From Noviherbaspirillum cavernae (GTDB taxonomy: Bacteria; Pseudomonadota; Gammaproteobacteria; Burkholderiales; Burkholderiaceae_D), in assembly GCF_003590875.1 (NCBI RefSeq), contig NZ_QYUN01000002.1, positions 3,162,001-3,226,000 on the forward strand: 64,000 nt of DNA, read 5' to 3'. Made by a program: the position numbers and the translations under genes. This document shows positions 2,081 to 17,897 of this stretch, one piece after another (within the stretch, counting starts at the first letter, position 1; each line of letters starts with the position of its first letter). The notes under the pieces were generated by a model that was given only the letters and a program-made list of their open reading frames with translations, did not search any database and was not told the DNA's origin.

Positions 2081-2159
2081 GAAAAGGAGGGTTGGCAGGC
2101 GATTTTTCAAGTCGAATCCCTTATTATATGGGAACTCATTGCCCTCAACGTATTGCCTC
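2081..2159. promoter_or_regulatory. Divergent lptD/amgK promoter region
   Basis: These 79 bp are all that separates the two divergent genes. On the minus strand a perfect TATAAT lies at 2128-2123, correctly placed for lptD transcription starting near 2116; no convincing -35 box is visible. The same A+T-rich patch (TTATTATATG) must also serve amgK. The assignment rests on sequence inspection only. Confidence 0.4.
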
Positions 2160-3185
2160 ATGTCTTTAGCTTCCCCTACCGATCTCCGTCTCATCCAATT
2201 GAAAGATTGGCTGCATGCATTGCCAGGAACGCCGGTTCTGCCGGATTCCATCAGGCCGGCGTCGTCCGATGCCAGTTTCCGCCGCTATTTCCGCGTGGAT
2301 GACATCCAGGGCGGCACGTTCATCGTGATGGACGCGCCGCCGCCGCAGGAGAATGTGCGCCCTTTCATCCACGTCGCAGAAGTGTTTGCCGAAACCGGCG
2401 TTTCCGTGCCGCACATTGTTGCGCAAGATGTGGAACGCGGATTCCTGCTGCTGTCCGATCTCGGTTCCACCACCTATCTCTCCGTCCTCAATCCGGACAA
2501 TGCGCACAAGCTGTACATGGATGCGATCCACTCCCTGATCCTGATCCAGGCACAGGGTCAGCCGGAGGTCCTGCCGGAATACGACCGCGCACTGCTGCTG
2601 CGCGAACTGATGCTGTTCCCGGATTGGTATATCGGCAAGCATCTGGGCGTCACGCTATCGGATGCGCAGACGCAGGTGCTGAACAAGGTGTTCGATGCCA
2701 TTCTCGCGAACAATCTGGCGCAGCCGCAAGTCTATGTGCATCGCGATTATCATTCGCGCAACCTGATGCTGATGCCGAAAGGCAATCCCGGCATTCTGGA
2801 TTTCCAGGATGCAGTGTTCGGCCCGATCACCTACGATCTGGTGTCCTTGCTGCGCGATGCGTATGTCCAGTGGGACGAGGAGCTGGTGCTCGACTGGGCC
2901 ATTCGCTATTGGGAGCGCGCGAAGAAGGCCGGACTGCCGGTCAATCCGGACATCGATTCCTTCTATCGGGATTTCGAATTCATGGGCGTGCAGCGCCACC
3001 TGAAAGTACTCGGCATTTTCGCGCGGCTCTATCACCGCGACGGCAAGGAGGCTTATCTGAAAGACTTGCCGCTGGTGATGGAATATACCCGCAAGGCTGC
3101 CGGACGTTACCGGGAACTGGTACCGCTGGTACGGCTGATGGATGAGCTGCACGACAGCGCGCCGCAAGTCGGCTACACCTTTTGA
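2160..3185 (+). CDS. amgK: Anomeric N-acetylmuramate/N-acetylglucosamine kinase AmgK
   Basis: Cytoplasmic kinase of the aminoglycoside-phosphotransferase fold that phosphorylates the anomeric hydroxyl of MurNAc or GlcNAc recovered from the cell wall, feeding MurU. It has 341 residues. The catalytic loop HRDYHSRN starts at about residue 194 and the metal-binding ILDFQDAVFGP follows some 20 residues later, both diagnostic of the APH fold. I chose the ATG at 2160 (MSLASPTDLRL); an upstream in-frame extension would run through the lptD promoter and is rejected. murU follows after 64 bp, which supports AmgK rather than a drug kinase. In Pseudomonas this pair bypasses de novo MurNAc synthesis and lowers fosfomycin sensitivity. 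Confidence 0.88.
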   Translation: MSLASPTDLRLIQLKDWLHALPGTPVLPDSIRPASSDASFRRYFRVDDIQGGTFIVMDAPPPQENVRPFIHVAEVFAETGVSVPHIVAQDVERGFLLLSDLGSTTYLSVLNPDNAHKLYMDAIHSLILIQAQGQPEVLPEYDRALLLRELMLFPDWYIGKHLGVTLSDAQTQVLNKVFDAILANNLAQPQVYVHRDYHSRNLMLMPKGNPGILDFQDAVFGPITYDLVSLLRDAYVQWDEELVLDWAIRYWERAKKAGLPVNPDIDSFYRDFEFMGVQRHLKVLGIFARLYHRDGKEAYLKDLPLVMEYTRKAAGRYRELVPLVRLMDELHDSAPQVGYTF

Positions 3186-3249
3186 CAAGCGATCGGATCA
3201 ATTTGATCGCTTGCCGTCCCGACGCATTTGACCGCAGGATGTCACCACC

Positions 3250-3969
3250 ATGAAAGCCATGATTTTCGCCGCCGGGCGCGGCGAGCGCATGCGGCCATTG
3301 ACCGATGACTGCCCCAAGCCGCTGCTGAAAGTGCGCGGCCGGCCATTGATCGTCTGGCACATTCTCAATCTCGTGCGCGCCGGCATTACCGAGATCGTCA
3401 TCAATCACGCGCACCTCGGCCAGATGATCGAAGACGCGCTGGGAGACGGCTCGAAGTTCGGCGCACGCATCGTCTATTCCGCCGAAGGCACGGCACTGGA
3501 GACCGCGGGCGGCATCGCCAAGGCGCGTCCGCTGCTGGGCGAGGAACCATTCGTCGCGGTGGCCGCCGATGTCTATTGCCCGCATTTTGATTTTGAGCAA
3601 GTGAAGACCACGCTCGAAGACAATGACATGTGGGGCAATCCGCATCCCGCCGACAAGCGCGACGTTGCCTGGCTCTACCTCGTGAAGAATCCGCCGCATC
3701 ATCCGAAGGGCGACTTTGCGCTGAACAGTTTTTCCATCGCCAATGAAGGCGAGCCGCGCTACACCTTTTCCGGCATCGGCGTGTACCGGCCGGAAATTTT
3801 CGACGGCATCGAAGCGGGCCAATCCGCGCCGCTTGCGCCCATCCTGCGCAGGTATGCAGATCGCGGCCATGTCGGCGGCGAAGTGGTTCGCGGCAACTGG
3901 ACCGACGTCGGCACGCCGGAACGGCTGGCGCAATTGAACGCTCCCATCCATCAAGGAGTCCGCACATGA
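3250..3969 (+). CDS. murU: N-acetylmuramate alpha-1-phosphate uridylyltransferase MurU
   Basis: Sugar-nucleotidyl transferase that converts MurNAc-1-phosphate and UTP to UDP-MurNAc, the step after AmgK in peptidoglycan recycling. The 239-residue protein opens with the nucleotidyltransferase signature FAAGRGERMRPLTDDCPKP (residues 6-24), with the GxGxRxxP loop and the catalytic lysine region. The C-terminus carries GNWTDVGTPERLAQL, typical of this family. Its stop codon overlaps the pepP start by 4 bp (ATGA), so the two are translationally coupled. Without amgK next door it could be read as a glucose-1-phosphate transferase; the context decides. Confidence 0.88.
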   Translation: MKAMIFAAGRGERMRPLTDDCPKPLLKVRGRPLIVWHILNLVRAGITEIVINHAHLGQMIEDALGDGSKFGARIVYSAEGTALETAGGIAKARPLLGEEPFVAVAADVYCPHFDFEQVKTTLEDNDMWGNPHPADKRDVAWLYLVKNPPHHPKGDFALNSFSIANEGEPRYTFSGIGVYRPEIFDGIEAGQSAPLAPILRRYADRGHVGGEVVRGNWTDVGTPERLAQLNAPIHQGVRT

Positions 3970-5297
3970 AAACCTATGCAGCCAGGCGCGCGGCGCTGAT
4001 CGCACAGATGCAGGCCAGGGGCGGCGGCGTCGCCATCATTCCGACCGCGCCGGAAGTCATGCGCAACCGCGATGCCGACTATCCTTACCGGCACGACAGT
4101 TATTTCTACTATCTGTCCGGCTTCACGGAGCCGGAAGCAGTCATCGTGCTGGTCGCCGGCAAGACGAACCAGTCCATCCTGTTCTGCCGCGAGAAAAATC
4201 TTGAGCGGGAAATCTGGGACGGCTACCGCTACGGGCCGGAAGCGGCGCGCGAGAAATTCGGTTTCGATGCCGCATTTGCCATCGAGGCATTGAACGTCGA
4301 AATGCCGAATCTGATCGCCAACGCACCGTCCCTTTTCTACGCATTGGGCAGCGACCTGCGGCTGGATACGCGGATACAGGAATGGCTGCAGGCCGTGCGC
4401 CTGCAAGCCCGCGCCGGCGTCGCCGCGCCGTCTGCCCTGCATGACGTGCATGTATTGCTGGACGAGATGCGCCTGTTCAAGGATGCGGAAGAAATCGCCA
4501 TCATGAAGCGCGCCGCGGCCATCTCCGCCGAGGCGCACCGGCGCGCGATGCGGGCGACCCGCCCCGGCTTGCGCGAATATCAGATCGAAGCGGAACTGCT
4601 GCATGAATTCCGCCGCCAGGGTTCGCAATTTCCGGCATACGGTTCCATCGTCGCCACCGGCGCGAATGCCTGCGTCTTGCACTACCGCGCCAGCGATGCG
4701 GAAATCAAAAACGGCGATCTCGTGCTGATCGATGCCGGCTGCGAGCTGGACGGCTATGCGTCCGACATCACACGTACCTATCCTGCCAACGGCACGTTCA
4801 GCGCACCGCAGAAGGCGCTGTACGAAATCGTGCTCGCCTCGCAAGCCGCCGCGATTGCCGAAACGCGCCCGGGAAAAGGCTTCATGGAGGGCCATGACGC
4901 CGCCGTTCGCGTGCTCGCCCAAGGCATGCTCGATACCGGCCTGCTCGACCGCAACAAGGTCGGCGCGCTCGACGATGTGATCGAGAAAGGCGCTTACCGC
5001 CAGTTCTACATGCATCGCACCGGGCACTGGCTCGGCATGGATGTCCACGATGTCGGCGAATACCGCGAAGCCGGGGCGGCAGGCGAGGAAAGGCCTTGGC
5101 GCAAGCTGCAGCCGGGCATGGTGCTGACGGTGGAGCCCGGCATCTACGTGCGGCCGGATGCCGATGTGCCGGAGCAGTTCTGGCACATCGGCATCCGCAT
5201 CGAGGACGATGCGCTGGTGACGGAGAACGGCTGCGACATCATCACCCGCGACGCGCCGAAAACCGTGGCCGACATCGAAGCGCTGATGAAGCATTGA
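3966..5297 (+). CDS. pepP: Xaa-Pro aminopeptidase PepP
   Basis: Dinuclear-metal (Mn) cytoplasmic aminopeptidase that removes the N-terminal residue from peptides with proline in position two. It has 443 residues, the same size as E. coli PepP (441). The N-terminal aminopeptidase-P domain (residues 1-130) is followed by the pita-bread metallopeptidase domain. Metal ligands are visible in LIDAGCELDGYASDITRTYP (two Asp), HRTGHWLGMDVHDVGEY (His), VLTVEPGIYV (Glu) and GIRIEDDALVT (Glu). It overlaps murU by 4 bp and ends 10 bp before the UbiH-like gene, matching the conserved pepP-ubiH linkage of proteobacteria. Confidence 0.95.
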   Translation: MKTYAARRAALIAQMQARGGGVAIIPTAPEVMRNRDADYPYRHDSYFYYLSGFTEPEAVIVLVAGKTNQSILFCREKNLEREIWDGYRYGPEAAREKFGFDAAFAIEALNVEMPNLIANAPSLFYALGSDLRLDTRIQEWLQAVRLQARAGVAAPSALHDVHVLLDEMRLFKDAEEIAIMKRAAAISAEAHRRAMRATRPGLREYQIEAELLHEFRRQGSQFPAYGSIVATGANACVLHYRASDAEIKNGDLVLIDAGCELDGYASDITRTYPANGTFSAPQKALYEIVLASQAAAIAETRPGKGFMEGHDAAVRVLAQGMLDTGLLDRNKVGALDDVIEKGAYRQFYMHRTGHWLGMDVHDVGEYREAGAAGEERPWRKLQPGMVLTVEPGIYVRPDADVPEQFWHIGIRIEDDALVTENGCDIITRDAPKTVADIEALMKH

Positions 5298-5307
5298 TCA
5301 TCGAACG

Positions 5308-6444
5308 ATGACAACGGATTTCGATATCGCCATCTGCGGCGCGGGTCCCGTCGGACTGACGCTCGCATTGCTGCTCGTCAGGCGGGGTATGACTGCGGAA
5401 CGCATCGCTCTGCTCGATGCCAAAACCGTCGAGCAAGCCGTCACGGACCCGCGCTCGATCGCCTTGTCCTACGGCAGCCGCCAGATTCTGGAAGACATCG
5501 ACGCATGGCCCTTGACGGCGGATGCGATCCATCAGATCCACGTTTCGCGCCGCGGCCACTTCGGCCGCACGCTGATTGACCGCAGCGATTACGACTTGCC
5601 GGCGCTCGGGTACGTCACGCGCTACGGCGTGCTGGTCAATGCATTGGCAGCGGCCGTCGCGCGCACGCAGATTGCCGTGATCCGTCCCGCGCAAGTCATG
5701 GGCGCGGATGAGCGCGAAGAACATGTGGAACTGCAGCTTGCGGACGAGAAAACGATCAACGCACAAATCATGGTGCAGGCCGAAGGCGGCCTGTTCTCCG
5801 AGCAGAATGCCAAGGCATTGCAGCGCGACTACGGCCAGAACGCCATCGTCGCGCATGTCCGTACCAGCGCGCCGCTCATGCATCGCGCATTCGAACGCTT
5901 CACCGAGGAAGGGCCGCTCGCGCTGCTGCCGCAGGACGATGGCTTTGCGCTCGTGTGGTGCGCGCGTCCGGCAAGCACTGACCGATTGATGGCCTTGCCG
6001 AATGCCGCCTTTCTGACGGAGCTGCAAAACGCTTTCGGCTCGCGCCTGGGCCGCTTCATTTCCGCATCGCCCCGCAATGTCTTTCCGCTCGGCTTGAATG
6101 CGAATCCGGCGACTTCCGCCAGGACAACCGCCATCGGCAATGCGGCGCAAACCCTGCATCCGGTCGCGGGACAGGGGCTCAATCTCGGCTTGCGGGATGC
6201 GGCTGTGCTTGCGCGTCTGCTGGCGCAGGAGGCAACGCCCGCGGCGCTGGAACACTTTGCAATGCGCCGCAAGACCGATCGCAATCTGACCATTCGCTTG
6301 ACCGATACGATGGCGCGCATATTCTCCAGCGCGCCGGATGGTGCGCCATCACAGACTTTGCTCGGCATGTCGCTGGGCCTCATCGATGCGTTCACGCCGG
6401 CAAAGAGACTGCTGGCAGAGCAGATGATGTTCGGACAGCGATAA
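5308..6444 (+). CDS. UbiH/UbiF/VisC-family FAD-dependent hydroxylase
   Basis: Flavoprotein monooxygenase of ubiquinone biosynthesis, adding a ring hydroxyl to a polyprenylated precursor at the membrane. The 378-residue protein starts with the Rossmann FAD site DIAICGAGPVGLTLALLL (GxGxxG). Near the C-terminus it carries the second FAD motif GNAAQTLHPVAGQGLNLGLR, the UbiH/COQ6 hallmark. Position after pepP favours the UbiH role, but beta-proteobacteria use different paralogues (UbiH, UbiF, UbiM and others) for different ring carbons, and which carbon this one attacks cannot be read from the sequence. An intrinsic terminator follows directly. Confidence 0.87.
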   Translation: MTTDFDIAICGAGPVGLTLALLLVRRGMTAERIALLDAKTVEQAVTDPRSIALSYGSRQILEDIDAWPLTADAIHQIHVSRRGHFGRTLIDRSDYDLPALGYVTRYGVLVNALAAAVARTQIAVIRPAQVMGADEREEHVELQLADEKTINAQIMVQAEGGLFSEQNAKALQRDYGQNAIVAHVRTSAPLMHRAFERFTEEGPLALLPQDDGFALVWCARPASTDRLMALPNAAFLTELQNAFGSRLGRFISASPRNVFPLGLNANPATSARTTAIGNAAQTLHPVAGQGLNLGLRDAAVLARLLAQEATPAALEHFAMRRKTDRNLTIRLTDTMARIFSSAPDGAPSQTLLGMSLGLIDAFTPAKRLLAEQMMFGQR

Positions 6445-6446
6445 AA

Positions 6447-6480
6447 AAGCCGCGGGACGGTGCGTTCACGCGGCTTCTTC
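6447..6480 (+). terminator. Intrinsic terminator after the UbiH-like gene
   Basis: AAGCCGCG at 6447-6454 pairs with CGCGGCTT at 6469-6476 and is followed by a pyrimidine tract (CTTCCTTTC). It starts 3 bp after the stop codon and closes the amgK-murU-pepP-ubi operon. Confidence 0.75.
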
Positions 6481-6650
6481 CTTTCGCTTCCTTTGCCTGC
6501 GGGGTGGAGTTCGTAGACGCCCTACTCCACCGCTTTGACCATGTCCGCCGCGAACGCCGGAATCCAGTGTCTTTTGTTGCATAACGTCGCTGTCTCTTCG
6601 TGGAGACAGGCCGGGGGTGGCCCGGCGGCCAGTCACTTTCTTTGCTTCGC
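6481..6650. other. Intergenic remnant between the UbiH-like gene and the IS
   Basis: No gene is recognised here. The stretch holds a hairpin (GGTGGAGT at 6503-6510 with ACTCCACC at 6524-6531). Overlapping its right arm, a 24-bp segment at 6523-6546 matches the 3' end of pntB (18051-18074) at 22 positions. The CTTTCTTTG at 6636-6644 pairs with CAAAGAAAG at 7959-7967 on the far side of the insertion sequence, so the IS appears to have split an older palindromic repeat. Confidence 0.5.
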
Positions 6651-6700
6651 TGTACAGACTCGGGACATGGGTAACAGATGTGCCGGGACATAGGTAACAC
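6651..6700. repeat. Left terminal inverted repeat of the IS481 element
   Basis: 50-bp end with two tandem sub-repeats (CGGGACATGGGTAACA and CGGGACATAGGTAACA). The inner 20 bp TGCCGGGACATAGGTAACAC at 6681-6700 is identical to the inner part of the right end in inverse orientation. Confidence 0.85.
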
Positions 6701-6702
6701 AT

Positions 6703-7851
6703 TTAATCGTCTCCTTTTGTCGTGCGCAAGTCGATCTGGCCGAAGCGATGGTGCGCAAAGTACAGATCGAACACGCCGTCCTGCCGAGGATGCGGACGAG
6801 CCGCAATCGGATGCGTGTGCAAGGCATTGGAGACCCTGAAGCGGCGCCCCTGCACAACGATCTTGCCGTCCCACCCCACTACCTGTACCAGATCGCCATC
6901 GCGGTAATGAATCTCCGGCAATGTCTCCGGATAGACCCGCCGGCTGGGCCGGTAACGCGTCACCGGCGTGGCCAGTCCCAGCGCCTCATGCGGCCGTTCA
7001 TGGTTGTACACTTGCCGCCAGCCATCGAACGCCTCCTGCGCCTCGTCCAGATCACGGAAGCATTGTCCTCGCAGCACTTCGCGCTTCAGGCTGCGATGGA
7101 AGCGTTCGTTCTTGCCATTGGTCTGCGGGTGCGCTGGACGACTATGGCTGATCTGGATGCCCAGCTGGATCAGCCAGATGGTCAGTCTGGTGATGCCGTG
7201 CTCATGTCGTGACGGGCTGCCCCAGGGGGAGCCGTTGTCGGCGTTGATGCGGACCGGCATGCCATGGCGGCGAAACACATCCTGCAGTGCTGCCTGTACG
7301 TGTTCCCGGTTGGGGCGGGCACAGGCTGCAAGCGTCAGGTTGTAGCGCGAGTGGTCGTCAATGACGGTCAGCGGATGGCAGGTAGCCGAGGCCGTCTCGA
7401 AGCAGCCCTTGAAGTCCATTTGCCACAGATCGTTGGGTGCGGCATGCTCGAAACGTGTCCATGGCGTACTGTCTTCACTGGCCTGCGGATCGACCAGATG
7501 GTGCCGGTGCAGGATGCGAGTGATGGTGCTGGGTGTCGGGATGCCTTGATGGCCCAGATCGCGCAAGCGCCGCTGCAGCTTGCGTGCACCCCAGGCCGGA
7601 TGTTCCTTGCGCAGTCCGACCACCAGCTCCTCGACGTCGGCATCCGTGCGCTGCGGGCTGTGCAATGGCCGGCGCGAGCGGTCAGCCATTCCGGCCAATC
7701 CCTCTTCGGCCACGCGGGCCAATAGCCTGTAGCCGGTCTTGCGGCTGATGCCGAACTGCGCACATAGCGCACTCATGTTCACTCCCTCCTGACGGGCCAA
7801 TGAGAGAAATTCCTGACGCAGAGTCATCGTGTCTATCGCTTTCCAGGACAT
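6703..7851 (-). CDS. IS481-family DDE transposase
   Basis: 382-residue integrase-fold transposase that cuts and joins the ends of its own element. An N-terminal helix-turn-helix (LCAQFGISRKTGYRLLARV, residues 29-47) is followed by a second winged-helix region and an rve catalytic core. DDE residues can be placed in LWQMDFKG (Asp), INADNGSPW (Asp) and NGKNERFHRSLKRE (Glu). The frame is complete and runs almost from end to end of the IS, starting 39 bp inside the right inverted repeat. No frameshift or stop was seen. Confidence 0.95.
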   Translation of the reverse strand: MSWKAIDTMTLRQEFLSLARQEGVNMSALCAQFGISRKTGYRLLARVAEEGLAGMADRSRRPLHSPQRTDADVEELVVGLRKEHPAWGARKLQRRLRDLGHQGIPTPSTITRILHRHHLVDPQASEDSTPWTRFEHAAPNDLWQMDFKGCFETASATCHPLTVIDDHSRYNLTLAACARPNREHVQAALQDVFRRHGMPVRINADNGSPWGSPSRHEHGITRLTIWLIQLGIQISHSRPAHPQTNGKNERFHRSLKREVLRGQCFRDLDEAQEAFDGWRQVYNHERPHEALGLATPVTRYRPSRRVYPETLPEIHYRDGDLVQVVGWDGKIVVQGRRFRVSNALHTHPIAARPHPRQDGVFDLYFAHHRFGQIDLRTTKGDD

Positions 7852-7889
7852 GGGTGGATGATCCTTCCGGCATCTTTGGGATACCGAAA

Positions 7890-7939
7890 GTGTTACCTAT
7901 GTCCCGGCACAAGTGTCACCTATGTCTCCGGTCTATACA
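7890..7939. repeat. Right terminal inverted repeat of the IS481 element
   Basis: Inverse of 6651-6700 with eight mismatches, all in the outer 30 bp. The inner 20 bp, GTGTTACCTATGTCCCGGCA at 7890-7909, match the left end perfectly. Confidence 0.85.
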
Positions 7940-8131
7940 TCTCGCCAAGAAAAGTAACCAAAGAAAGGCGACCGCACAGCCGCTGCCCCTGCGGGGTTCC
8001 CGAAAAGACGCGTGCCAAAGTGGGAAGCGAAACAAACTCGCCCTCGCTGCGCGAGGACTCAGACAAGTTTCGCTTCTTTATCCACTTTGACACGCGCCTT
8101 TTCGGCAGCGTCCAAGCGGAGCTGCAAAAAG
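7940..8131. repeat. Palindromic intergenic repeat right of the IS
   Basis: Noncoding. After the separated half of the split repeat (CAAAGAAAG at 7959-7967) there is a long inverted repeat. The arm at 8002-8033 (GAAAAGACGCGTGCCAAAGT onward) pairs with 8067-8103 (ending ACACGCGCCTTTTC). The arms agree over about 32 positions except three substitutions and a small insertion, with a loop of roughly 33 nt that itself contains GCGAGG/CCTCGC-type pairing. Confidence 0.7.
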
Positions 8132-8169
8132 CCCGTACACGATCACTCGCAGGAGAAATCGTGTACGGG
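8132..8169 (-). terminator. Intrinsic terminator of hutU1
   Basis: A perfect 12-bp stem (CCCGTACACGAT at 8132-8143 with ATCGTGTACGGG at 8158-8169) is followed, on the minus strand, by CTTTTTG. It lies 8 bp after the hutU1 stop codon and ends the catabolic run. Confidence 0.85.
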
Positions 8170-8177
8170 TGTATTAC

Positions 8178-9905
8178 TTACTTCAGCATCGGCAAATTCA
8201 AGCCATTGCGCTTGGCACATGCAATCGCCGTCTCGTAGCCGGCATCGGCATGGCGCATCACGCCCGAGCCGCAGTCGTTGACCAGCACCCGGCCCAGACG
8301 CTTGGCGGCGGCCTCGGTGCCGTCGGCCACGATCACCACGCCGGAGTGCTGCGAGTAACCCATGCCGACGCCACCGCCGTGGTGCAGGCTGACCCAGGTC
8401 GCGCCGCCGGCGGTGTTCAAGAGGGCGTTCAACAGCGGCCAGTCGGAGACGGCGTCGGTGCCGTCCTTCATGCTTTCGGTTTCGCGGTTCGGGCTGGCGA
8501 CCGAGCCGGTGTCGAGGTGGTCGCGGCCGATGACGATCGGGGCTTTCAGTTCGCCGTTCTTGACCATTTCATTGAAGGCGAGACCGGCGATGTGGCGTTC
8601 ACCGAGGCCGAGCCAGCAGATGCGTGCCGGCAAGCCCTGGAAGGCGATGCGGTCGCGTGCCATGTCGAGCCAGTTGTGCACGTGCTTGTTGTCGGGGAAC
8701 AGTTCCTTGATCTTGGCGTCGGTCTTGTAGATGTCTTCGGGGTCGCCGGACAGGGCCACCCAGCGGAACGGGCCCTTGCCTTCGCAGAACAGCGGACGGA
8801 TGTAGGCGGGGACGAAGCCGGGGAAGTCGAACGCGTTCTTGACGCCTTGATCCAGCGCGACCTGACGGATGTTGTTGCCGTAGTCGACCACGTAGCTGCC
8901 GAGCGCCTGGAAGTCGAGCATGGCTTGCACGTGGATGGCGCAAGACTTGGCGGCGGCATCGCTCAATTTGGCGTGCTGGCCTTGGTCTTGCTGCGCGGCT
9001 TTCCATTGCGCCACGCTCCAGCCGGCCGGCAGGTAGCCGTTGATGAGGTCGTGCGCCGAGGTCTGGTCGGTGACGAGGTCGGGCTTGATGCCGCCGGCCT
9101 TGGCGCGCTTGACCAGTTCCGGCAGGATTTCGGCGGCGTTGCCGAGCAGGCCGATGGAGACGGTTTCCTTGCGTTCGGTGTGGTATTTGATCAGGGCGAT
9201 GGCGTCGTCGATGTCTTTCGCCTGCTTGTCGAGGTAGCGGGTGCGCAGGCGGAAGTCGATGCTGGATTGCTGGCATTCGATGTTGAGCGAGACGGCACCG
9301 GCCAGGGTGGCGGCCAGCGGCTGCGCGCCGCCCATGCCGCCGAGGCCGGCGGTCAGGATCCAGCGGCCGGCGAGGCTGCCGCCGAAGTGCTGGCGGCCGG
9401 CTTCGCCGAAGGTTTCATAGGTGCCTTGCACGATGCCCTGGCTGCCGATGTAGATCCAGGAGCCGGCGGTCATCTGGCCGTACATGAACAGGCCCTTGCG
9501 GTCGAGTTCGTTGAAGTGCTCCCAGTTGCCCCATTTCGGCACGAGGTTGGAGTTGGCGAGCAAGACGCGCGGGGCGTCGGGATGGGTCTGGAACACGCCG
9601 ACCGGCTTGCCGGATTGCACCAAGAGCGATTCGTCGTCGTTCAGGTTCTTCAGGACGTCGAGGATCCTGTCGTAGCATTCCCAGTTGCGCGCGGCGCGGC
9701 CGATGCCGCCGTATACCACGAGGTGCTTCGGGTTCTCGGCCACTTCCGGGTCGAGGTTGTTTTGCAGCATGCGGTAGGCCGCTTCGGTTTGCCAGCTCTT
9801 GCAGACCTTCTCGCTGCCGCGCGGCGCGCGGATCTCGCGGGATGCATCCCAGCGCGGGTCGTTGGTCAGGTTGTTCAGTTGGGTGTTCTCGGTGATGCTG
9901 TTCAT
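8178..9905 (-). CDS. hutU: Urocanate hydratase (canonical copy)
   Basis: NAD-dependent cytoplasmic enzyme adding water to urocanate to give 4-imidazolone-5-propionate, step two of histidine degradation. It has 575 residues, normal for the family. Conserved blocks are [60 protein letters not shown] and [12 protein letters not shown] with the NAD-binding catalytic cysteine. The ATG at 9905 is set by GGAGAG 6 nt upstream; the frame stays open further but has no start signal. Every motif I recall from characterised HutU is kept, so this copy is probably the true urocanase. hutH, hutI and hutG/F are absent from the window. It is last in a seven-gene minus-strand run and close to the IS. Confidence 0.95.
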
Positions 9906-10082
9906 GGTGTTCTCTCCAATCAGATGTTGAGTTGAGTGAATGACGTTTATTGCTTTACAGAAGACAAGACGTCCCCCTGCCGGCCGATTGCGTCGGCAGC
10001 ATTTGTTGCAAGTGATGCGGAAGGTTTGCGCCGCCGGCACGGTCGGCAGCCGCCCCGTCAGGCGGCGCCGGTCGTGCGGGCT
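9906..10082. other. Spacer between quinone oxidoreductase and hutU1
   Basis: 177 bp without a gene. Just beyond the oxidoreductase stop, an imperfect GC-rich hairpin (arms near 10030-10050 and 10060-10076) could act as a weak attenuator or RNA-stabilising structure. The rest includes the A+T-richer leader of hutU1. hutU1 may therefore have its own promoter, but none is clear. Confidence 0.4.
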
Positions 10083-11054
10083 TCAGTCGGATCCGGCGAT
10101 GTCGAGGATCAGCTTGCCGACGGTTTTGCGTGATGCCAGATCGTCGAGCGCGCTGTTCAGTTTCTCCATCGGATAACGCGATCCGATGTCGACCGTCAGC
10201 TTGCCTGCTTCGATCTGCTTGCCGATGTCGTCGACCGCGCGGCGGATCAGATCGAGGTCGCGCTCGTGGCTCCAGTACACGCCGACCGCCGATGCATTCT
10301 TGAGCAGCAGGCGGTTGCTCTTGATCTCGGCGATGCGCCCGCCGGCAAAGCCGACGATGCACAGGCGGCCGCGATAGGCGAGGCACTTCATGCTGCCGTC
10401 GGTGATGTCGCCGCCGACCGGATCGATGATGACGTCCGCGCCCTTCTTGCCGGTGATGTCGAGCACCTGCTGCAGCCAGTCGGAGGTGCGGTAGTTGATC
10501 ACGTGGGTGGCACCGCGCTCGCGGCACAGTTCCAGCTTGTCGTCGCTGCCGGCGGTGGCGATCACGGTTGCGCCGGCATTGACGGCCAGCTGTATCGCGG
10601 CCAGGCCGACGCCGCCTGCGGCCGCGTGGATCAGCACCGTTTCACCGGCACGCACGGCAGCGCGATCATGCAATGCAATCCATGCGGTCGGCCACACCAC
10701 CGGCAAGGCGGCGGCGCGCGCCAGCGGCAAGCCCTTCGGCACGCGAATCAGTTTCTCTTCATCGACGATGGCGTATTCGCCGAACGCGCCCCACACCACC
10801 TTGGCCGCGATCAGGTCGCCCGGCTTGAATGCGCTGCCGTAAGGCGCACGTTCGATGTGGCCGCTGACTTCCTGCCCCGGCACGAAGGGCAGCGGCGGCT
10901 TGATCTGGTACGCGCCCTGCGTCATCAGCACGTCGGAAAAATTGAGCGCCGCGTGGCTCACGCGCACCAGCACCTGTCCCTGCTGCGGTTCGGGGACCGG
11001 CTGCTCCACGAGCTGCGGTGCTCCCTGCAGATCCTGAACGATCCATGCCTTCAT
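10083..11054 (-). CDS. Zinc-independent NADPH:quinone oxidoreductase-family reductase
   Basis: Medium-chain dehydrogenase/reductase of the QOR branch, 323 residues. The N-terminal GroES-like domain carries the family block VPGQEVSGHIE, and the Rossmann motif AAAGGVGLAAIQLA starts at about residue 144. The cysteine pattern of zinc alcohol dehydrogenases is missing, as expected for quinone/enone reductases. Its start overlaps the CoA-transferase stop by 4 bp (ATGA), so the two are coupled. In this setting it may reduce an enoyl- or acrylate-type intermediate of the pathway; the substrate is unknown. Confidence 0.85.
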   Translation of the reverse strand: MKAWIVQDLQGAPQLVEQPVPEPQQGQVLVRVSHAALNFSDVLMTQGAYQIKPPLPFVPGQEVSGHIERAPYGSAFKPGDLIAAKVVWGAFGEYAIVDEEKLIRVPKGLPLARAAALPVVWPTAWIALHDRAAVRAGETVLIHAAAGGVGLAAIQLAVNAGATVIATAGSDDKLELCRERGATHVINYRTSDWLQQVLDITGKKGADVIIDPVGGDITDGSMKCLAYRGRLCIVGFAGGRIAEIKSNRLLLKNASAVGVYWSHERDLDLIRRAVDDIGKQIEAGKLTVDIGSRYPMEKLNSALDDLASRKTVGKLILDIAGSD

Positions 11055-12223
11055 ATTGCCTGCCTCTGTTTGAGTTGTTCGATGTCCGCGTCGTTCATGC
11101 CGAGTCCCTTCAGCACTTCGACGGTATGCTCGCCCAGCATCGGGTCGCGCTGCGCTTCATTCGGCGCGTCGGAGAAGCGCGCCGGCTGCTGCATGAACTG
11201 CATCGGACCGCACAGCGGGTGGGCCATCGCATGCAGCATGTGCGTGCTCTGTTCCTGCAATTGCCGATGCGCCGTTGCCAGATCCCACACCGGACCGGCG
11301 GGGATATCGGCTTCGCGGCAGTCACTCAGGACTTCCTCGACCGTGTGCGTACGCGTCCATGCGGAAATGATTGCCTTCAGTTCATCCACGTTCGCGCTGC
11401 GCACCGTCTTGTTGCAGAAGCGCGGATCGTCATTCAGTTCAGGTTTGCCGATCATGGCGGCGAACTTGCGGAATGCGCCGTCATGGCTAACCACCGCCAC
11501 CACGTGTCCGTCGCGCGCCGGGAAACTGTCCACCGGCGTCGTCATCGGATGACGATTGCCGACCCGCATCGGCGCCTTGCCGTCGGCCAGCAGGCGGCTG
11601 AACGCCGTCACCTGCAAGGCCAGCATGGCGTCGAACATCGCGAGGTCGATGTAGCGGCCGGGGCCGCCGCGCTCGCGCGACAGCAATGCCGCGAGAATCG
11701 ACCACGAGCCGAACAGGCCGGTCCACATGTCGGCGATCGATTCGCCGACGCAGGTCGGATCGCCGTCGGGCGTGCCGGTGATGTGCATCAGGCCCGACAT
11801 CGCCTGGATCACGAGGTCGTAGGCCGGCTGCTCGCGCAGATTGCCGCTCTGGCCGAAGCCGGAGATGCTGAGATAGACCAGACGCGGATTGATGGCGGAG
11901 AGACTCTCGTAATCGACACCGAGACGTTTCGCCACGCCGGGCCGGAAGTTCTCCACCACCACGTCGGCATCGGCCACCAGCTTGCGCAAGACCTCGCAAG
12001 CCTCGGGCTGCTTCAAGTTGAGCGTGATGCTTTTCTTGTTGCGGTTGAGCTGCGCGAAGTACACGCTGTAATCATTGACATGGGGACCAAAGTGCCGCGA
12101 ATCGTCGCCGCTGCCGGGCGTCTCGATCTTGATCACTTCCGCGCCCATGTCAGCCAGCAAGGCGGTGCAGTACGGGCCGGACATGACCCGCGACAAATCC
12201 ACCACCTTGATACCGGAAAGCAT
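11051..12223 (-). CDS. CaiB/BaiF family (class III) CoA transferase
   Basis: 390-residue class III CoA transferase, moving CoA from one carboxylic acid to another without a free acid intermediate bound covalently in the class I manner. The family start MLSGIKVVDLSRVMSGPYCT is followed by LADMGAEVIKIE (the IE block), then NRNKKSITLNLK, and FRPGVAKRLGVDYESL; the Asp of GESIADMWTGLFG is a good candidate for the catalytic aspartate that forms the acyl anhydride. The ATG at 12223 matches the family N-terminus; the frame continues upstream into a repeat and is not used. Coupled to the reductase downstream. The acid it activates is unknown. Confidence 0.88.
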   Translation of the reverse strand: MLSGIKVVDLSRVMSGPYCTALLADMGAEVIKIETPGSGDDSRHFGPHVNDYSVYFAQLNRNKKSITLNLKQPEACEVLRKLVADADVVVENFRPGVAKRLGVDYESLSAINPRLVYLSISGFGQSGNLREQPAYDLVIQAMSGLMHITGTPDGDPTCVGESIADMWTGLFGSWSILAALLSRERGGPGRYIDLAMFDAMLALQVTAFSRLLADGKAPMRVGNRHPMTTPVDSFPARDGHVVAVVSHDGAFRKFAAMIGKPELNDDPRFCNKTVRSANVDELKAIISAWTRTHTVEEVLSDCREADIPAGPVWDLATAHRQLQEQSTHMLHAMAHPLCGPMQFMQQPARFSDAPNEAQRDPMLGEHTVEVLKGLGMNDADIEQLKQRQAI

Positions 12224-12245
12224 ACCCACTGTTTTCTCCTGATGT

Positions 12246-12436
12246 AGAGCGTCTGACAAAATAAAGCGAAGCGGTTCTGAGTAGAGTGAAGCAGGGAATT
12301 CGGGCAGCATGCTGCCCGCCTGCACAACGGCACAGGCATGCAAGCCTGTGCGCACCCTGCAAGGGCGCCGTCGCAGACAGTACGGCTGTACGGCAAGACG
12401 GCGCAACGCCCTCAGAATGATTTTGTTTGACGCTCT
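12246..12436. repeat. Palindromic repeat element, copy 1 (with internal extra DNA)
   Basis: 191-bp element with ends AGAGCGTC (12246-12253) and GACGCTCT (12429-12436). The left end reads AGAGCGTCTGACAAAATAAA, the inverse right end AGAGCGTCAAACAAAATCAT. Next to each end are GCGAAGCGGTTCTGAG and the complementary CTCAGA. It shares ends and the interior CGCAGACAGTACG...GTACGGCAAG block with 54128-54241. Compared with that copy it holds about 75 extra bp containing two clean palindromes (GGGCAGCATGCTGCCC and CACAGGC...GCCTGTG). Its first bases overlap the ATPase stop codon. Confidence 0.8.
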
Positions 12437-13230
12437 CAGCCAAACAACAAGGCGTCGTCCTCAATCTGCTCATGGCAGGATTCGGAGAACAGGCGCAGCA
12501 GATCAGGCACGTCGAACTTGCTGCGCTTCTCGCCTTGCACATCGAATGCGATGTTCCCCTTGTGGAACATCACGGTGCGATCGCCGTAATCGAGCGCCTG
12601 CCGCATGCTGTGCGTGACCATCATCACGGTCAGCTTCTTTTCGCGCACGAGGCCGTCGGTCAGCTGCATCACGAAATCGGCGGTCTTCGGATCGAGCGCG
12701 GCGGTGTGTTCGTCCAGCAGCAGCACCTTGGTTTCCGCCAGCGTCGCCATCAACAGGCTGACCGCCTGGCGCTGGCCGCCCGACAGCAGGCCCATCTGGT
12801 CGTGCAGGCGGTTTTCCAGCCCGAGGCCCAGACGCGACAGCGATTCGCGGAAGCGGTCGCGGTACTCGGCGCGCAGCGCATTCGACAGGCCGCGCGGCGT
12901 GGTGCGCTTCAACGCAAGCGCCATGTTTTCCTCGATCGTCAGCTGCTCGCAGGTGCCCGCCAGCGGGTCCTGGAACACCCGCGACAGCAGGCGCGCGCGT
13001 TCGCGCACCGGCCAGCGCGTGATGTCCTGTCCGGCCACCGTCAGCTTGCCTTCGCTGACCGGGATCACGCCCGCCAGCACGTTGAGGAACGTCGACTTGC
13101 CCGCGCCGTTGGTGCCGATCACGGTCACGAACTGGCCTGCCGGGATCGAGAGCGAAGCACCTTGCAGCGCATGGTTTTCCAGCACGGTGCCCGGCTTGAA
13201 CACCACATGAATGTTTTTCGCTTCAATCAT
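12436..13230 (-). CDS. ABC transporter ATP-binding protein
   Basis: 264-residue cytoplasmic ATPase driving the adjacent permease. Walker A GTNGAGKST lies at about residues 39-47, the ABC signature is LLSGGQRQA, and Walker B is VLLLDEHTAALDP; the H-loop follows in MMVTHSMRQ. The ATG at 13230 (MIEAKNIHVVF) overlaps the permease stop by 4 bp. An open frame continues far upstream but only as an out-of-frame shadow of the permease. This ATPase type belongs with PF04392-type binding proteins (TrpXYZ-like uptake systems). Solute: unknown, possibly the compound handled by the two hydratases. Confidence 0.9.
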   Translation of the reverse strand: MIEAKNIHVVFKPGTVLENHALQGASLSIPAGQFVTVIGTNGAGKSTFLNVLAGVIPVSEGKLTVAGQDITRWPVRERARLLSRVFQDPLAGTCEQLTIEENMALALKRTTPRGLSNALRAEYRDRFRESLSRLGLGLENRLHDQMGLLSGGQRQAVSLLMATLAETKVLLLDEHTAALDPKTADFVMQLTDGLVREKKLTVMMVTHSMRQALDYGDRTVMFHKGNIAFDVQGEKRSKFDVPDLLRLFSESCHEQIEDDALLFG

Positions 13231-14132
13231 GACTGCACCTTCTTCAAAGCGGTGCGGCTGCGGCCGCGTTTGAACAGTTTCGTATCCGGTGCGACCAGGG
13301 CGAAGGCCACCAGCAGCGCCGTGACGATGTTGAGATCGGACGGCGTGATGCCGAAGCCGTCGAAACTCAGCGCCAGCGACACGATCAGCTTGTAGACCAC
13401 GGCGCCGATCACTGCGGAGATCAGCGCCAGCAGCATGGTGCGCTGAGGCATCAGCGCCGCGCCGCCGATCACGGCGGCAAAGCCGATCACGATCACGCCC
13501 ACGCCCATGTTCACGTCGGCCGCTCCCTGCGTCTGCGCAAACAGCGCACCGCCAACCGCGACCAGCGCATTGCCCAATGCCAGGCCGAGCCATTTCATGC
13601 GATCCGTGTTGACGCCGTTGGCGGCGGCCATCCGCTCGTTGGCGCCGGTGGCGCGCATCGCCAGACCCACCTCCGATTGCAGGAAGCGGTTCAGCAGCAG
13701 CACCAGCACGGTCATGCCCACCAGCAGCGCGACCGGCACTGCCCATTCGCTCGGCAGCGGCAGGTGCGACAGGAAGCTGAACACGGTGTCCTGCCCGAGC
13801 AGCGGCGTATTGGGACGCCCCATCACGCGCAGGTTGACCGAGTACAGCGCGACTGACACCAGGATGCCGGCGAGGATGTGCAGGATGCGCAGGCGCACGT
13901 TCATGTAGATGGTGATGCTGCCCGCCGCCGCACCCGCCAGGGCGGCACAGCCGGTGGCCACGAAGGGGTTGATGTCATGCGAAATCAGCGTCGCCGCGAC
14001 TGCGGCACCAAGGGGAAAGCTGCCTTCGACCGTAATGTCCGGAAAGTTCAGGATCCGGAAGGTCAACAGAGTCCCCAGCGCAACCAGGCCGAACAACAGT
14101 CCGGACTCCAGCGCGCCAAGAAAGGAATACAT
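13227..14132 (-). CDS. ABC transporter permease (BPD_transp_2 type)
   Basis: 301-residue integral membrane protein with about eight to nine hydrophobic segments, beginning MYSFLGALESGLLFGLVALG. NFPDITVEGSFPLGAAVAA is the conserved cytoplasmic/pore block of the permeases that pair with PF04392 binding proteins. The ATG at 14132 has GGAGGAG about 12 nt upstream. It lies 49 bp after the binding-protein gene and overlaps the ATPase gene by 4 bp, so one operon encodes a complete importer with a homodimeric permease. Confidence 0.88.
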   Translation of the reverse strand: MYSFLGALESGLLFGLVALGTLLTFRILNFPDITVEGSFPLGAAVAATLISHDINPFVATGCAALAGAAAGSITIYMNVRLRILHILAGILVSVALYSVNLRVMGRPNTPLLGQDTVFSFLSHLPLPSEWAVPVALLVGMTVLVLLLNRFLQSEVGLAMRATGANERMAAANGVNTDRMKWLGLALGNALVAVGGALFAQTQGAADVNMGVGVIVIGFAAVIGGAALMPQRTMLLALISAVIGAVVYKLIVSLALSFDGFGITPSDLNIVTALLVAFALVAPDTKLFKRGRSRTALKKVQS

Positions 14133-14181
14133 ATTCACGTCGTCTCCTCCGCCCGCCGAAGCGGGCACATGCAAATTGCTG

Positions 14182-15138
14182 TTACTTGTTTACGAATTCC
14201 GCCTTGGCCTGGACCGATGCCGGTACCTGCAAGCCGGTCGCCTGCACCGCGCGCTGGTTGACGACGGTGCGGAAGGCGTTGGGGATGGCCACATCGATCT
14301 CGCCAGGCTTTGTACCGGACAGGATTTGCGCAACCTGCTTTGCCGCAGTCTGCCCGACCGCGGTGTAGTCGAAGCCGATGGAGGCGATCGCGCCGCGCTC
14401 GACCGAGCGGGTCTCGCCGGTGAACAGCGGAATCTTCTTTTCCTGCGCGACCTTGGCGATTGCCTCGAGCGCAGCGTAGACCGTCACGTCGTTGGGAATC
14501 CAGACCGAATCGACCTTGCCGACCAGCGAGCGCATCGAGGCGATGGCATCGTTGGAGTTGGGTACCGGCGACTCGACGAGCGTGATGCCGGCCGAACCGG
14601 CCACCTTCTTCATCACTTCCAGCTGATAGCGCGAACCGTCCAGACCCGGGTTGAACAGCACGCCCAGCCGCTTCAGGTTCGGCACGAACTGCTGCATCAG
14701 GCGTACCTGCAGGTTGATCGGTGCCAGATCGGACACGCCGGTGGCATTGGCACCCGGCTTGTCGAAACGCGACACGACCTTGGCACCGACCGGATCGGTG
14801 ACCACCGTGAACACGATCGGCACTTCCTTGGTCGCGGACATGGCCGCCTGCGCCATCGGCGTGGTGATCGTCACGATGACGTCGGGACGATCACCCACAT
14901 ACTTGCGCACGATCTGCGCCGCGGTGCCCATGTTGCCCTGCGCGGTCTGGTATTCGAGCTTCAGATTCTTGCCTTCTTCATAGCCCGCCGCCTTCAAGCC
15001 TTGCACCAGACCCGCCTTCACTTCCAGCAACTGCGGAATGTCGATCATGTTGGCGATTGCCACTGTTTTTTGTTGTGCCATCGCCCCCTGTGCCACGAGT
15101 GCCAATACACATGCCATTGCTTTCAATCGAAACTTCAT
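14182..15138 (-). CDS. ABC transporter substrate-binding protein (PF04392 type)
   Basis: Periplasmic solute receptor of 318 residues. Signal peptide MKFRLKAMACVLALVAQGAMA is cleaved before QQKTVAIANM. The mature part shows the two-lobed type with VPIVFTVVTDPVGAKVV and NPGLDGSRYQLEVMKK, as in TrpX-like receptors of small aromatic or amino-acid solutes. The ATG at 15138 has a GGAGACAC ribosome site. It lies 26 bp after hutU2, which ties uptake to hydratase expression. The solute is not identifiable from sequence; an imidazole- or indole-ring acid is an inference from context. Confidence 0.87.
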   Translation of the reverse strand: MKFRLKAMACVLALVAQGAMAQQKTVAIANMIDIPQLLEVKAGLVQGLKAAGYEEGKNLKLEYQTAQGNMGTAAQIVRKYVGDRPDVIVTITTPMAQAAMSATKEVPIVFTVVTDPVGAKVVSRFDKPGANATGVSDLAPINLQVRLMQQFVPNLKRLGVLFNPGLDGSRYQLEVMKKVAGSAGITLVESPVPNSNDAIASMRSLVGKVDSVWIPNDVTVYAALEAIAKVAQEKKIPLFTGETRSVERGAIASIGFDYTAVGQTAAKQVAQILSGTKPGEIDVAIPNAFRTVVNQRAVQATGLQVPASVQAKAEFVNK

Positions 15139-15164
15139 TTGTGTCTCCTCCAAAGGTTGAAGCG

Positions 15165-16829
15165 TTAGTCAACGAAAGGTAATTTCACCTGATGCTCTTT
15201 TGCCGTCTCCAGCGCAATGTCGTAGCCCGCATCGGCGTGGCGCACCACGCCGCTGGCCGGGTCGTTCCACAGCAGACGCTTGATGCGCTCGTCGGCATCG
15301 GCGCTGCCATCGGCCACCACTGCCATGCCGGAGTGAATCGAGTAGCCCATGCCCACGCCGCCGCCGTGATGCAGGCTGACCCAGTCGGCGCCGCCGGCGG
15401 TGTTCAGCATCGCGTTGAGCAGCGGCCAGTCAGCCACCGCGTCGGAGCCGTCCAGCATGCCTTCGGTTTCGCGGTTGGGGCTGGCGACCGAGCCGGAATC
15501 CATGTGGTCGCGACTGATGGCGACCGGCGCGCTCAGTTCGCCATTCCTGACCATCTCGTTGATCGCCAAGCCCGCCAGATGACGCTCGCCCAGACCGAGC
15601 CAGCAGATGCGCGCAGGCAAGCCCTGGAAGCGCACGCATTCGCGCGCAAGATCGAGCCAGCGGTGCAGCATCTTGTCGCCGGAGAAAAGCTGGCGCAATT
15701 TTGCGTCGGTCTTGTAGATGTCTTCCGGATCGCCGGACAGCGCGACCCAGCGGAACGGCCCCTTGCCGCGGCAGAACAGCGGACGCACATAGGCCACGAC
15801 GAACGAGGGGAAATCGAAGGCGTTGACCACGCCTTCTTCGTAGGCGACCTGGCGGATGTTGTTGCCATAGTCGAATACGACTGCGCCGCGCTTGCGGAAT
15901 TCGAGCATCGCATTGACGTGCTCGGTGATGGATTTGCGCGCCGCGGCGACGATGGAATCGGGATTGCTCTTCTGCGCGTCCTGCCACTGGCTGACGGTCC
16001 AGCCTGCCGGCAGATAGCCGTACACCAGATCATGCGCGGCAGTCTGGTCGGTCACCGCATCCGGGCACAGGCCGCGCCGCGCGATTTCCGGCAGCACTTC
16101 GGCCGCATTGCCGAGCAGACCGACCGACAGGCCCTTGCCTTCCTTGCGCGCCCGTTCGATCAGGTGCAGCGCATCGTCGAGGCTGGTCGCCTGGCAATCC
16201 AGATAGCCGGTACGCAGACGCATGTCGATCCGCGCCTGCTGGCATTCGACCACGAGGATCGCCGCGCCAGCCATGCGACCAGCCAGGGGCTGCGAACCGC
16301 CCATGCCGCCCAGGCCAGAAGTCAGGATCCAGCGGCCGGCCATGTTGCCGTTGAAATGCTGGTGCGCGACTTCGCAGTAGGTTTCGAAGGTGCCTTGCAC
16401 CGTGCCTTGGCTGCCGATATAGAACCACGAACCGGCGGTCATCTGGCCGTACATCATCAGGCCGAGGCTGTCGAGCTTGTGGAAATGCTCGGGCGTCGCC
16501 CACTTCGGCACGAGGTTGGAGTTGGCGATCAGGACGCGCGGCGCGCCGGCATGGGTCTTCAAGACTGCCACCGGCTTGCCGGACTGCACCATCAGCGTTT
16601 CATCTTCCTGCAAATTCTTCAAAGCCTCGACGATCTGCTCAAACGCGCGCCAGTTGCGCGCCGCCTTGCCCAGCCCGCCATACACGATCAGCTCGGATGG
16701 ATTTTCCGCCACGTCCGGATCGAGATTGTTCATCAGCATGCGCAACGGACCTTCGATGCGCCAGTTGCGTGTATTCAGCTCCGTCCCCCGGGGTGCCCGT
16801 ACCGTGCGGGACACGCTTTCCTTCGTCAT
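15165..16829 (-). CDS. Urocanate hydratase paralogue, diverged
   Basis: 554-residue NAD-dependent hydratase of the HutU family, first gene of the run. It keeps the core ([44 protein letters not shown] with the catalytic cysteine). It departs from the canonical copy at normally fixed places: [17 protein letters not shown] for [34 protein letters not shown] for [31 protein letters not shown] for [14 protein letters not shown], and ISRDHMD for IGRDHLD. Start at 16829 is supported by GAGGAG. A related but different substrate is plausible (thiourocanate of ergothioneine breakdown is one known example of a HutU-family alternative), but this is inference. The name hutU is avoided for that reason. 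Confidence 0.85.
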
Positions 16830-16964: not shown

Positions 16965-17897
16965 ATGAAACGTTACACACCATCTCTTTCCTGCCTACAA
17001 GCTTTTGAAGCGGCCGGCCGCTATCTGAGCTTCACGCGCGCCGCGCAGGAGCTCTACGTAACCCAGGGCGCGGTCAGCCGCTTGATCCAGACGCTGGAAA
17101 ATCAGCTCGGCGTGCTGCTGTTCGTGCGCCAGAACAAATATCTGACGCTGACCTCGGCCGGGGAAGCCTATTTGCGAAAAATTCAACCCTGCCTTGCACG
17201 ACTGGAAGCGGCGACGCAGGAATTGCAGGCGGGACACAGCGGCGGTGCGCGCCTGAACCTGTCCGTGCTGCCGACCTTTTCCGCCAAGTGGCTGATGCCG
17301 CGCTTCCCCGCCTTCGCCGCCGCCCATCCGAACATTCTCATCAATATTTCGACCCGCATCGCCCCCTTCAGCTTCGGCAAGGAAGACATCGACGCGGCGA
17401 TTCATTTCGGCGAGCCGGTGTGGCCGGAGCCGGCGAAATTCGATTTCCTGTTGAGCGAGAGCGTGATACCCGTGTGCAGTCCCGACTTCATGAAGCGCCA
17501 CGGACCGTTCAAGGAGCCGCGCGACCTGACCCGCTGCACACTGCTGCATCTGGCGTCGCGCGCCAACTCGTGGCAGAACTGGCTTGAAAAGGCCGGCGCC
17601 GAACTGGAGGAAAGAGTCGGCGGACCGATGTTCGAGCACTATCTGATGATCTTCCAGGCTGCGGTGGCCGGACTGGGGATCGGCCTCGTGCCACCGTTCC
17701 TGATCGCCGATGAATTGAATTCCGGCAAGCTGATCGCGCCCTTCGACATCCTGCTGTCGGAAACCGCCGCCTACTACCTGGTCTATCCGGAAGACCGCGC
17801 GCACTACTCGCCGCTGAAGCTGTTCAGGGAATGGCTGTTGCAGGAAATCAGGCAGGTGCACCAGGTGCATCACGCCGCGCCGCGTGAGCCCGCATGA
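16965..17897 (+). CDS. LysR-family regulator of the hutU2 operon (GcvA-like)
   Basis: 310-residue DNA-binding regulator. The N-terminal winged helix-turn-helix covers residues 5-64 (FTRAAQELYVTQGAVSRLIQ and NQLGVLLFVR), and a two-lobed periplasmic-binding-like effector domain follows. It resembles GcvA-type regulators in the N-terminus SLSCLQAFEAAGRYLSFTRA. It is divergent from hutU2 with 135 bp between the start codons, the classical arrangement for a LysR regulator that controls the neighbouring operon and itself. The inducer is likely the imported compound or a product of it. Confidence 0.9.
   Translation: MKRYTPSLSCLQAFEAAGRYLSFTRAAQELYVTQGAVSRLIQTLENQLGVLLFVRQNKYLTLTSAGEAYLRKIQPCLARLEAATQELQAGHSGGARLNLSVLPTFSAKWLMPRFPAFAAAHPNILINISTRIAPFSFGKEDIDAAIHFGEPVWPEPAKFDFLLSESVIPVCSPDFMKRHGPFKEPRDLTRCTLLHLASRANSWQNWLEKAGAELEERVGGPMFEHYLMIFQAAVAGLGIGLVPPFLIADELNSGKLIAPFDILLSETAAYYLVYPEDRAHYSPLKLFREWLLQEIRQVHQVHHAAPREPA

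Follow-up and report, generated by a model that had tools for sequence, protein, structure and literature searches.

Among the known systems closest to the locus reported here is the hut operon of histidine breakdown (HutH, HutU, HutI, and HutG), in which HutU is the urocanate hydratase, or urocanase. Coote and Hassall reportedly grew Pseudomonas testosteroni on imidazolylpropionate, which was broken down through urocanate. Here, we analyzed a 64,000-nucleotide stretch of the Noviherbaspirillum cavernae genome (contig NZ_QYUN01000002.1, positions 3,162,001 to 3,226,000; referred to as the window), which holds a cluster of genes for two urocanate hydratase homologs, an ATP-binding cassette (ABC) transporter, a CaiB-type coenzyme A (CoA) transferase, and a reductase of the MDR superfamily. 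The two homologs are UroA (15165 to 16829, minus strand) and UroB (8178 to 9905, minus strand), labeled hutU2 and hutU1 in an initial annotation made from the sequence alone. We propose, with confidence that falls just short of even, that the cluster imports an imidazolepropionate-type (dihydrourocanate-type) acid and channels it into histidine breakdown, which would make it a variant of hut-type catabolism with a putative substrate.

The cluster shares features with four groups of described or observed systems and departs from each. Like the hut operon, it offers urocanase chemistry, with UroB being a near copy of HutU and the downstream genes lying elsewhere in the genome. Unlike the hut operon, it contains a CaiB, an MDR enzyme, and a PF04392-type transporter; no HutH, HutI, HutG, or HutF was found in it with Pfam and NCBIfam profiles, so the cluster is not in itself a canonical hut operon. 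It also resembles hut operons that hold CaiB and an acyl-CoA dehydrogenase (Paracoccus, Thioclava, Pseudorhodobacter, and Microvirga), where a urocanase accompanies a CaiB that may fall into one broad group with that of the cluster, but its own CaiB is followed by an MDR reductase rather than an acyl-CoA dehydrogenase and is 42 to 50% identical to theirs. The hydratases for thiourocanate (7ned) and S-methylthiourocanate (8q9v) offer a third comparison, as specialized relatives of urocanase; a thiourocanate hydratase on a Paracoccus aminophilus plasmid adjoins CaiB and dehydrogenases. However, UroA is 51% and 49% identical to these two enzymes versus 66 to 67% to the ordinary urocanase of Pseudomonas putida, and it scores below both family cutoffs. 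Finally, the cluster CaiB has the PF02515 fold and the PAYD motif of family III CoA transferases (formyl-CoA, succinate-glutarate, carnitine), but falls below the cutoff of every named NCBIfam member reported.

In the literature searched, with most subscription journals outside its scope, we found no published description of such a pathway or of hut operons with CaiB and an acyl-CoA dehydrogenase. We therefore raise, as a tentative suggestion, that the UroA-CaiB-reductase cluster and the CaiB/acyl-CoA dehydrogenase sets of hut operons represent an undescribed CoA-dependent route that consumes imidazolepropionate or a relative with a modified ring; the UroA clade would then be a new hydratase subfamily specific to this route. 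If true, the urocanase family would gain a branch beyond its known specialized members, which act on thiourocanate and S-methylthiourocanate. Imidazole propionate, a colonic product of urocanate reduction, is called non-metabolizable in a 2025 review (PMC11872695), and another paper links it to diabetes (PMC7676231). The CoA-transferase sets found repeatedly next to genes of histidine breakdown supply candidate enzymes for its removal.

UroA belongs to a divergent clade linked to CaiB

Both hydratases passed the HutU model TIGR01228 (cutoff, 375 bits), with scores of 902.5 for UroA and 945 for UroB. Because this model also accepts a thiourocanate hydratase (702.8 bits), it does not fix the substrate of either protein. 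Scores fell below the cutoff for thiourocanate hydratase (NF058530, cutoff 930; UroA, 735.8; UroB, 677.1) and for S-methylthiourocanate hydratase (NF058531, cutoff 880; UroA, 720; UroB, 697), ruling out UroA as a member of either family. UroA was 65 to 66% identical to both ordinary copies in its genome, while its relatives in protein databases, several of them named Variovorax, reached 71 to 90%; the clade also occurs in metagenomes. We built a tree of the 255 urocanases that remained after dropping own-genome duplicates and stretches with stops or fewer than 500 aligned residues. UroA fell in a 20-member clade (support, 0.995) nested in a 52-member clade with weak support (0.62), referred to here as the UroA clade, and 202 ordinary urocanase rows, including a few twice-entered loci, fell outside it. 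Three other members of the clade also missed both specialized cutoffs.

Searches of related genomes showed no further clade member. In a sample of 399 genomes from the order, matches at E ≤ 1e-200 occurred in 73, the best besides UroA itself at 69% identity. A sample of 399 genomes from the Polaromonas family, which may overlap the first, gave six genomes with a match at E ≤ 1e-264 and 69 to 70% identity, all at ordinary urocanase loci; in both samples, up to three candidates were scored per genome. The clade was likewise not seen in 55 genomes from five genus searches directed at Variovorax. Loci from the Polaromonas-family search and three of the genus searches held ordinary urocanases with an adjoining hutH. 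No plasmid record reached 80% identity (best among the matches listed, 68.4%), and viral contigs yielded no CaiB relative and three urocanase stretches, each of which resembled ordinary urocanases at least as much as the clade.

Linkage between UroA-clade proteins and relatives of the other cluster genes was scored as equal length of the longest listed contig, comparing the 120 best entries of each list. By this measure, 12 of 51 UroA-clade members shared a longest-contig size with a listed CaiB relative versus 0 of 68 ordinary urocanases, and in all 12 cases both partners came from the same source database. Relatives of the transporter's binding protein gave 5 of 51 versus 0 of 68. In a control where lengths were shifted by 1 to 20, the mean was 0.2 matches and the maximum was 3. 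Since only the 120 best per list were compared, at least 12 clade members are linked by this measure. The initial annotation had counted the CoA transferase as part of the pathway, and the linkage, together with the hut context of related CaiB genes described below, bears this out over a chance neighbor. When 195 genomes from the host's family were searched for the binding protein at E ≤ 1e-85, one matched, namely the host itself.

The clade also differs from ordinary urocanases at otherwise constant residues. Of 258 positions near-invariant in the ordinary rows (≥98.5% conserved), 11 were altered across the 52-member clade, including I138F, I145T, G344S, and P347V (P. putida numbering, taken as UroA + 2). 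Eight of the 11 also differ in the thiourocanate hydratase of Paracoccus aminophilus, the single such enzyme compared, versus 76 of the 258 overall (P = 0.003). The altered positions fit a change in substrate recognition, toward a substrate other than plain urocanate, although they could instead mark positions that tolerate change. A structure model of UroA (mean pLDDT, 82.2, with values below 50 in several stretches including 123 to 139 and 443 to 453) matched urocanases.

Related CoA transferases adjoin histidine-breakdown genes

The cluster CaiB (11051 to 12229, minus strand; start at GTG 12229 or ATG 12223) matched PF02515 with 424.7 bits (cutoff, 23.3), which places it among the family III CoA transferases. 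Its PAYD motif contains an Asp that we take to be the catalytic aspartate of that family. Named carnitine, oxalate, formyl-CoA, mesaconate, and succinate-glutarate transferases were each rejected, with scores below their NCBIfam cutoffs.

We surveyed related genes with P0261, a CaiB tied by longest-contig size to a UroA-clade protein. The 27 top-ranked of 1224 plasmid records were 45 to 54% identical to P0261, with no sharp drop below. Fourteen of these 27 were inspected, and 11 adjoined hut, histidine-lyase-like, or thiourocanate-hydratase genes. Six of the 11 were accompanied by an acyl-CoA dehydrogenase (Mesorhizobium, two P. aminophilus plasmids, Paracoccus alcaliphilus, Thioclava, and Pseudorhodobacter), and five by a hydroxyacyl-CoA dehydrogenase and an enoyl-CoA hydratase (Sodalis, Agrobacterium, Neorhizobium, Rhizobium sp. 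BT04, and R. beringeri). Three lower-ranked relatives had no hut genes; those of Pseudomonas and Variovorax lay with ordinary beta-oxidation genes, and that of Leisingera was part of a CaiB-dehydrogenase pair.

CaiB and an acyl-CoA dehydrogenase lie inside hut operons in P. alcaliphilus, on P. aminophilus pAMI6, and in Thioclava, Pseudorhodobacter, and Microvirga; among 80 named hut loci, one had CaiB beside hut, that of Microvirga massiliensis. In one Burkholderiales genome (locus 146-14172), the order hutI-hutD-hutU-hutH-hutC was followed by a LysR gene, CaiB (56%), and an acyl-CoA dehydrogenase (58%), while another Burkholderiales genome carried CaiB and the dehydrogenase away from hut. The CaiB/acyl-CoA dehydrogenase/urocanase set is most simply read as a route in which imidazolepropionate would be converted to its CoA ester, then to urocanyl-CoA and urocanate, which would enter the Hut pathway.

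On P. aminophilus pAMI4 (1070 to 10364), a thiourocanate hydratase (1033 bits; cutoff, 930) and hydrolase genes lie across a LysR gene from CaiB and two acyl-CoA dehydrogenase genes, which hints at a CoA branch of ergothioneine breakdown. The plasmid sets of Rhizobium, Agrobacterium, Neorhizobium, and Sodalis combine CaiB with an ABC transporter (of osmoprotectant type by its annotation in Neorhizobium), a histidine-lyase-like gene, and the hydroxyacyl-CoA dehydrogenase and enoyl-CoA hydratase genes, and possibly serve uptake and side-chain oxidation of a histidine betaine. In Gemmobacter and Mesorhizobium, CaiB and acyl-CoA dehydrogenase genes lie by a ring-hydroxylating oxygenase pair, an aminotransferase, and an FAD oxidoreductase, with hutC close by in Mesorhizobium.

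UroB closely matches the HutU of the host's hut operon

The host genome (4.66 Mb, four contigs) encodes a third urocanase about 167 kb from the cluster. Its operon includes HutC, HutH, HutG, and HutI, all over their NCBIfam cutoffs, along with ABC-transporter genes and a probable HutD that matched no NCBIfam model. The absence of other hut genes noted in the initial annotation thus holds for the cluster but not for the genome. Among the named hut loci compared, the nearest by DNA was that of Collimonas silvisoli (82%), which suggests a host of Oxalobacteraceae type.

Over 573 aligned codons, UroB differs from the genome's own hutU by 54 synonymous and 10 amino-acid changes plus a short indel, and the two genes share about 96% DNA identity in 100-base windows. 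Judged by this comparison, UroB is an extra ordinary HutU that would have arisen by duplication or by receipt from a near relative, and the excess of silent changes indicates that it has been kept functional. It is therefore ruled out as a second specialized hydratase, and we saw no sign that it processes a late intermediate, as had been supposed. Downstream of UroB, homology to the hutU-hutH spacer of the own operon (approximately 83 to 85%) runs from 7942 to 8178 and resumes at approximately 6550 to 6650. This spacer-like DNA is split by an IS481-family element (approximately 6651 to 7941) whose transposase gene (6703 to 7851, minus strand) matched NF033577 with 296.2 bits (cutoff, 224).

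A putative CoA-dependent route and its alternatives

In the route that we propose, the ABC system would import an imidazole acid of the imidazolepropionate type, and the CaiB-type transferase would load CoA onto the acid and, in exchange, unload it from the unsaturated product. Between these events, the CoA-bound side chain would undergo oxidation or some other adjustment, catalyzed either by the MDR enzyme or by a general acyl-CoA dehydrogenase from elsewhere in the genome. Once released, the urocanate-type acid would be hydrated by UroA, with UroB supplying extra plain urocanase capacity, and the hydration product would pass to the HutI and HutG enzymes that the hut operon encodes. The LysR regulator may sense the substrate. 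The gene content, the statistical linkage of the UroA clade with CaiB, the hut context of related CaiB genes, and the hut operon of the genome are observed; the substrate, the CoA chemistry, the part played by the MDR enzyme, the direction of flow, and the regulation are what we infer from them.

Several observations weigh against this route, the most serious of which concern its redox step. No acyl-CoA dehydrogenase match was found in the window or in two stretches of the own genome that were tested, and the best candidate in the genome matched at only 40% (4 of 27 candidates scored), which speaks against a dedicated acyl-CoA dehydrogenase in this genome. Enzymes of the MDR family are known as reductases, and acyl-CoA oxidation with NADP is energetically uphill. 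With an MDR reductase in the dehydrogenase's place, the step would fall to a general dehydrogenase, or else the cluster differs in its substrate or direction. The redox step is thus the weakest link and the reason that our confidence stays below one half. The linkage of the 12 clade members is read from matching contig sizes. The identity of the cluster CaiB to hut-linked ones is low, as given above. A CaiB tree was built from 142 proteins, comprising the full list of 120 and a further 22 taken from loci (including one cut gene). The window's family grouped with hut-linked, lyase-linked, and related ones (support, 0.69), and closer to dehydrogenase-bearing ones (0.81), relative to only four generic outgroups. 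Among the 14 inspected CaiB relatives, those of Paracoccus yeei and Gemmobacter had no nearby hut gene, and that of Sinorhizobium chiapasense was ambiguous, with a dehydrogenase and a hut-type binding protein beside CaiB but no urocanase found. Lastly, the residue changes shared across the UroA clade point to a substrate with a modified ring over plain urocanate.

That last point leads to the alternative that survives best, although we consider it unlikely: the substrate is ring modified (e.g., imidazole propionate or imidazole acrylate with an N-methyl group), and UroA is its specialized hydratase, comparable to those for thiourocanate and S-methylthiourocanate. The eight changed positions shared with thiourocanate hydratase are in its favor, but they come from one such enzyme and could reflect tolerance to change. 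UroA and its three tested clade members miss both specialized cutoffs, as would be consistent with a further specificity, and the oxygenase genes beside CaiB in Gemmobacter and Mesorhizobium are of a Rieske type that could act on N-methyl groups. Yet no lyase, demethylase, or ring-modifying enzyme was found among the cluster genes with Pfam and NCBIfam profiles.

It is improbable that UroA serves simply as a second urocanase isoenzyme acting on urocanate from outside the cell, with the CoA transferase and reductase serving an unrelated acid. Both hydratases do pass the urocanate hydratase cutoff, and UroA is closest to the ordinary P. putida enzyme among those compared above, but the linkage of its clade with CaiB, the hut context of related CaiB genes, and the clade-wide residue changes are at odds with this explanation. 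Shortening of the side chain by beta-oxidation at the CoA level is also improbable: the Rhizobium, Agrobacterium, Neorhizobium, and Sodalis sets offer a model, with CaiB proteins 48 to 51% identical to a UroA-linked CaiB, but neither the window nor the two own-genome stretches held a match to their hydroxyacyl-CoA dehydrogenase or enoyl-CoA hydratase, and such a route would face competition from a hydratase of the urocanase type.

For the imidazolepropionate-type route, the general idea of the initial annotation, uptake and breakdown of an imidazole acid other than urocanate through CoA esters, fits the CaiB linkage and the residue changes in UroA, whereas the special role that it gave UroB does not stand. 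The CoA esters may carry the carbon onward or may act in a side-chain step only.

Layout of the cluster and its remaining genes

The cluster consists of seven same-strand genes and a divergent LysR gene, with open reading frames, order, and strand as initially annotated. Pfam matches agreed with the gene calls: both hydratases have the N, Rossmann, and C domains of urocanase, and the other products matched PF04392, PF02653, PF00005, PF02515, ADH_N/ADH_zinc_N, and LysR. Downstream of UroA on the minus strand follow the PF04392-type substrate-binding protein (14182 to 15153; alternative ATG start near 15138), the PF02653-type permease (13227 to 14174; alternative ATG start near 14132), and the ATPase (12436 to 13230), then CaiB and the quinone-oxidoreductase-like MDR reductase (10083 to 11054), and last UroB. 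The GcvA-like LysR regulator (16965 to 17897, plus strand) matched PRK11139 with 305.1 bits (cutoff, 288).

Permease and ATPase genes overlap, as do those of CaiB and the reductase (each by 4 bases). Gaps of about 200 bases ahead of CaiB and 177 bases ahead of UroB leave room for internal promoters. A scan for promoter consensus returned a single promoter-like site, ahead of UroA, where 1.2 were expected by chance. The cluster is flanked by Xaa-Pro aminopeptidase and UbiH-type hydroxylase genes (3966 to 6444) on one side and by transhydrogenase subunit beta (from 18050) on the other.

The MDR reductase reached no NCBIfam cutoff (best, TIGR02824, with 249.5 of 296.8 bits). Acrylyl-CoA reductase (AcuI, YhdH) was rejected for it, with scores of 76.8 for NF051456 (cutoff, 440) and 110.5 for TIGR02823 (cutoff, 297.25). 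The binding protein was likewise rejected as the tryptophan transporter TrpX (NF041285, 250.8 bits; cutoff, 390). Its nearest solved relatives are 3lkv, 6hni, and 3lft, from a family known to bind aromatic amino acids. In Variovorax paradoxus VAI-C (locus 11989-14687), a related binding protein, permease, and ATPase lie between 4-hydroxyphenylpyruvate/homogentisate genes and an alpha-hydroxy-acid oxidase gene, a context consistent with a role of such transporters in aromatic acid uptake.

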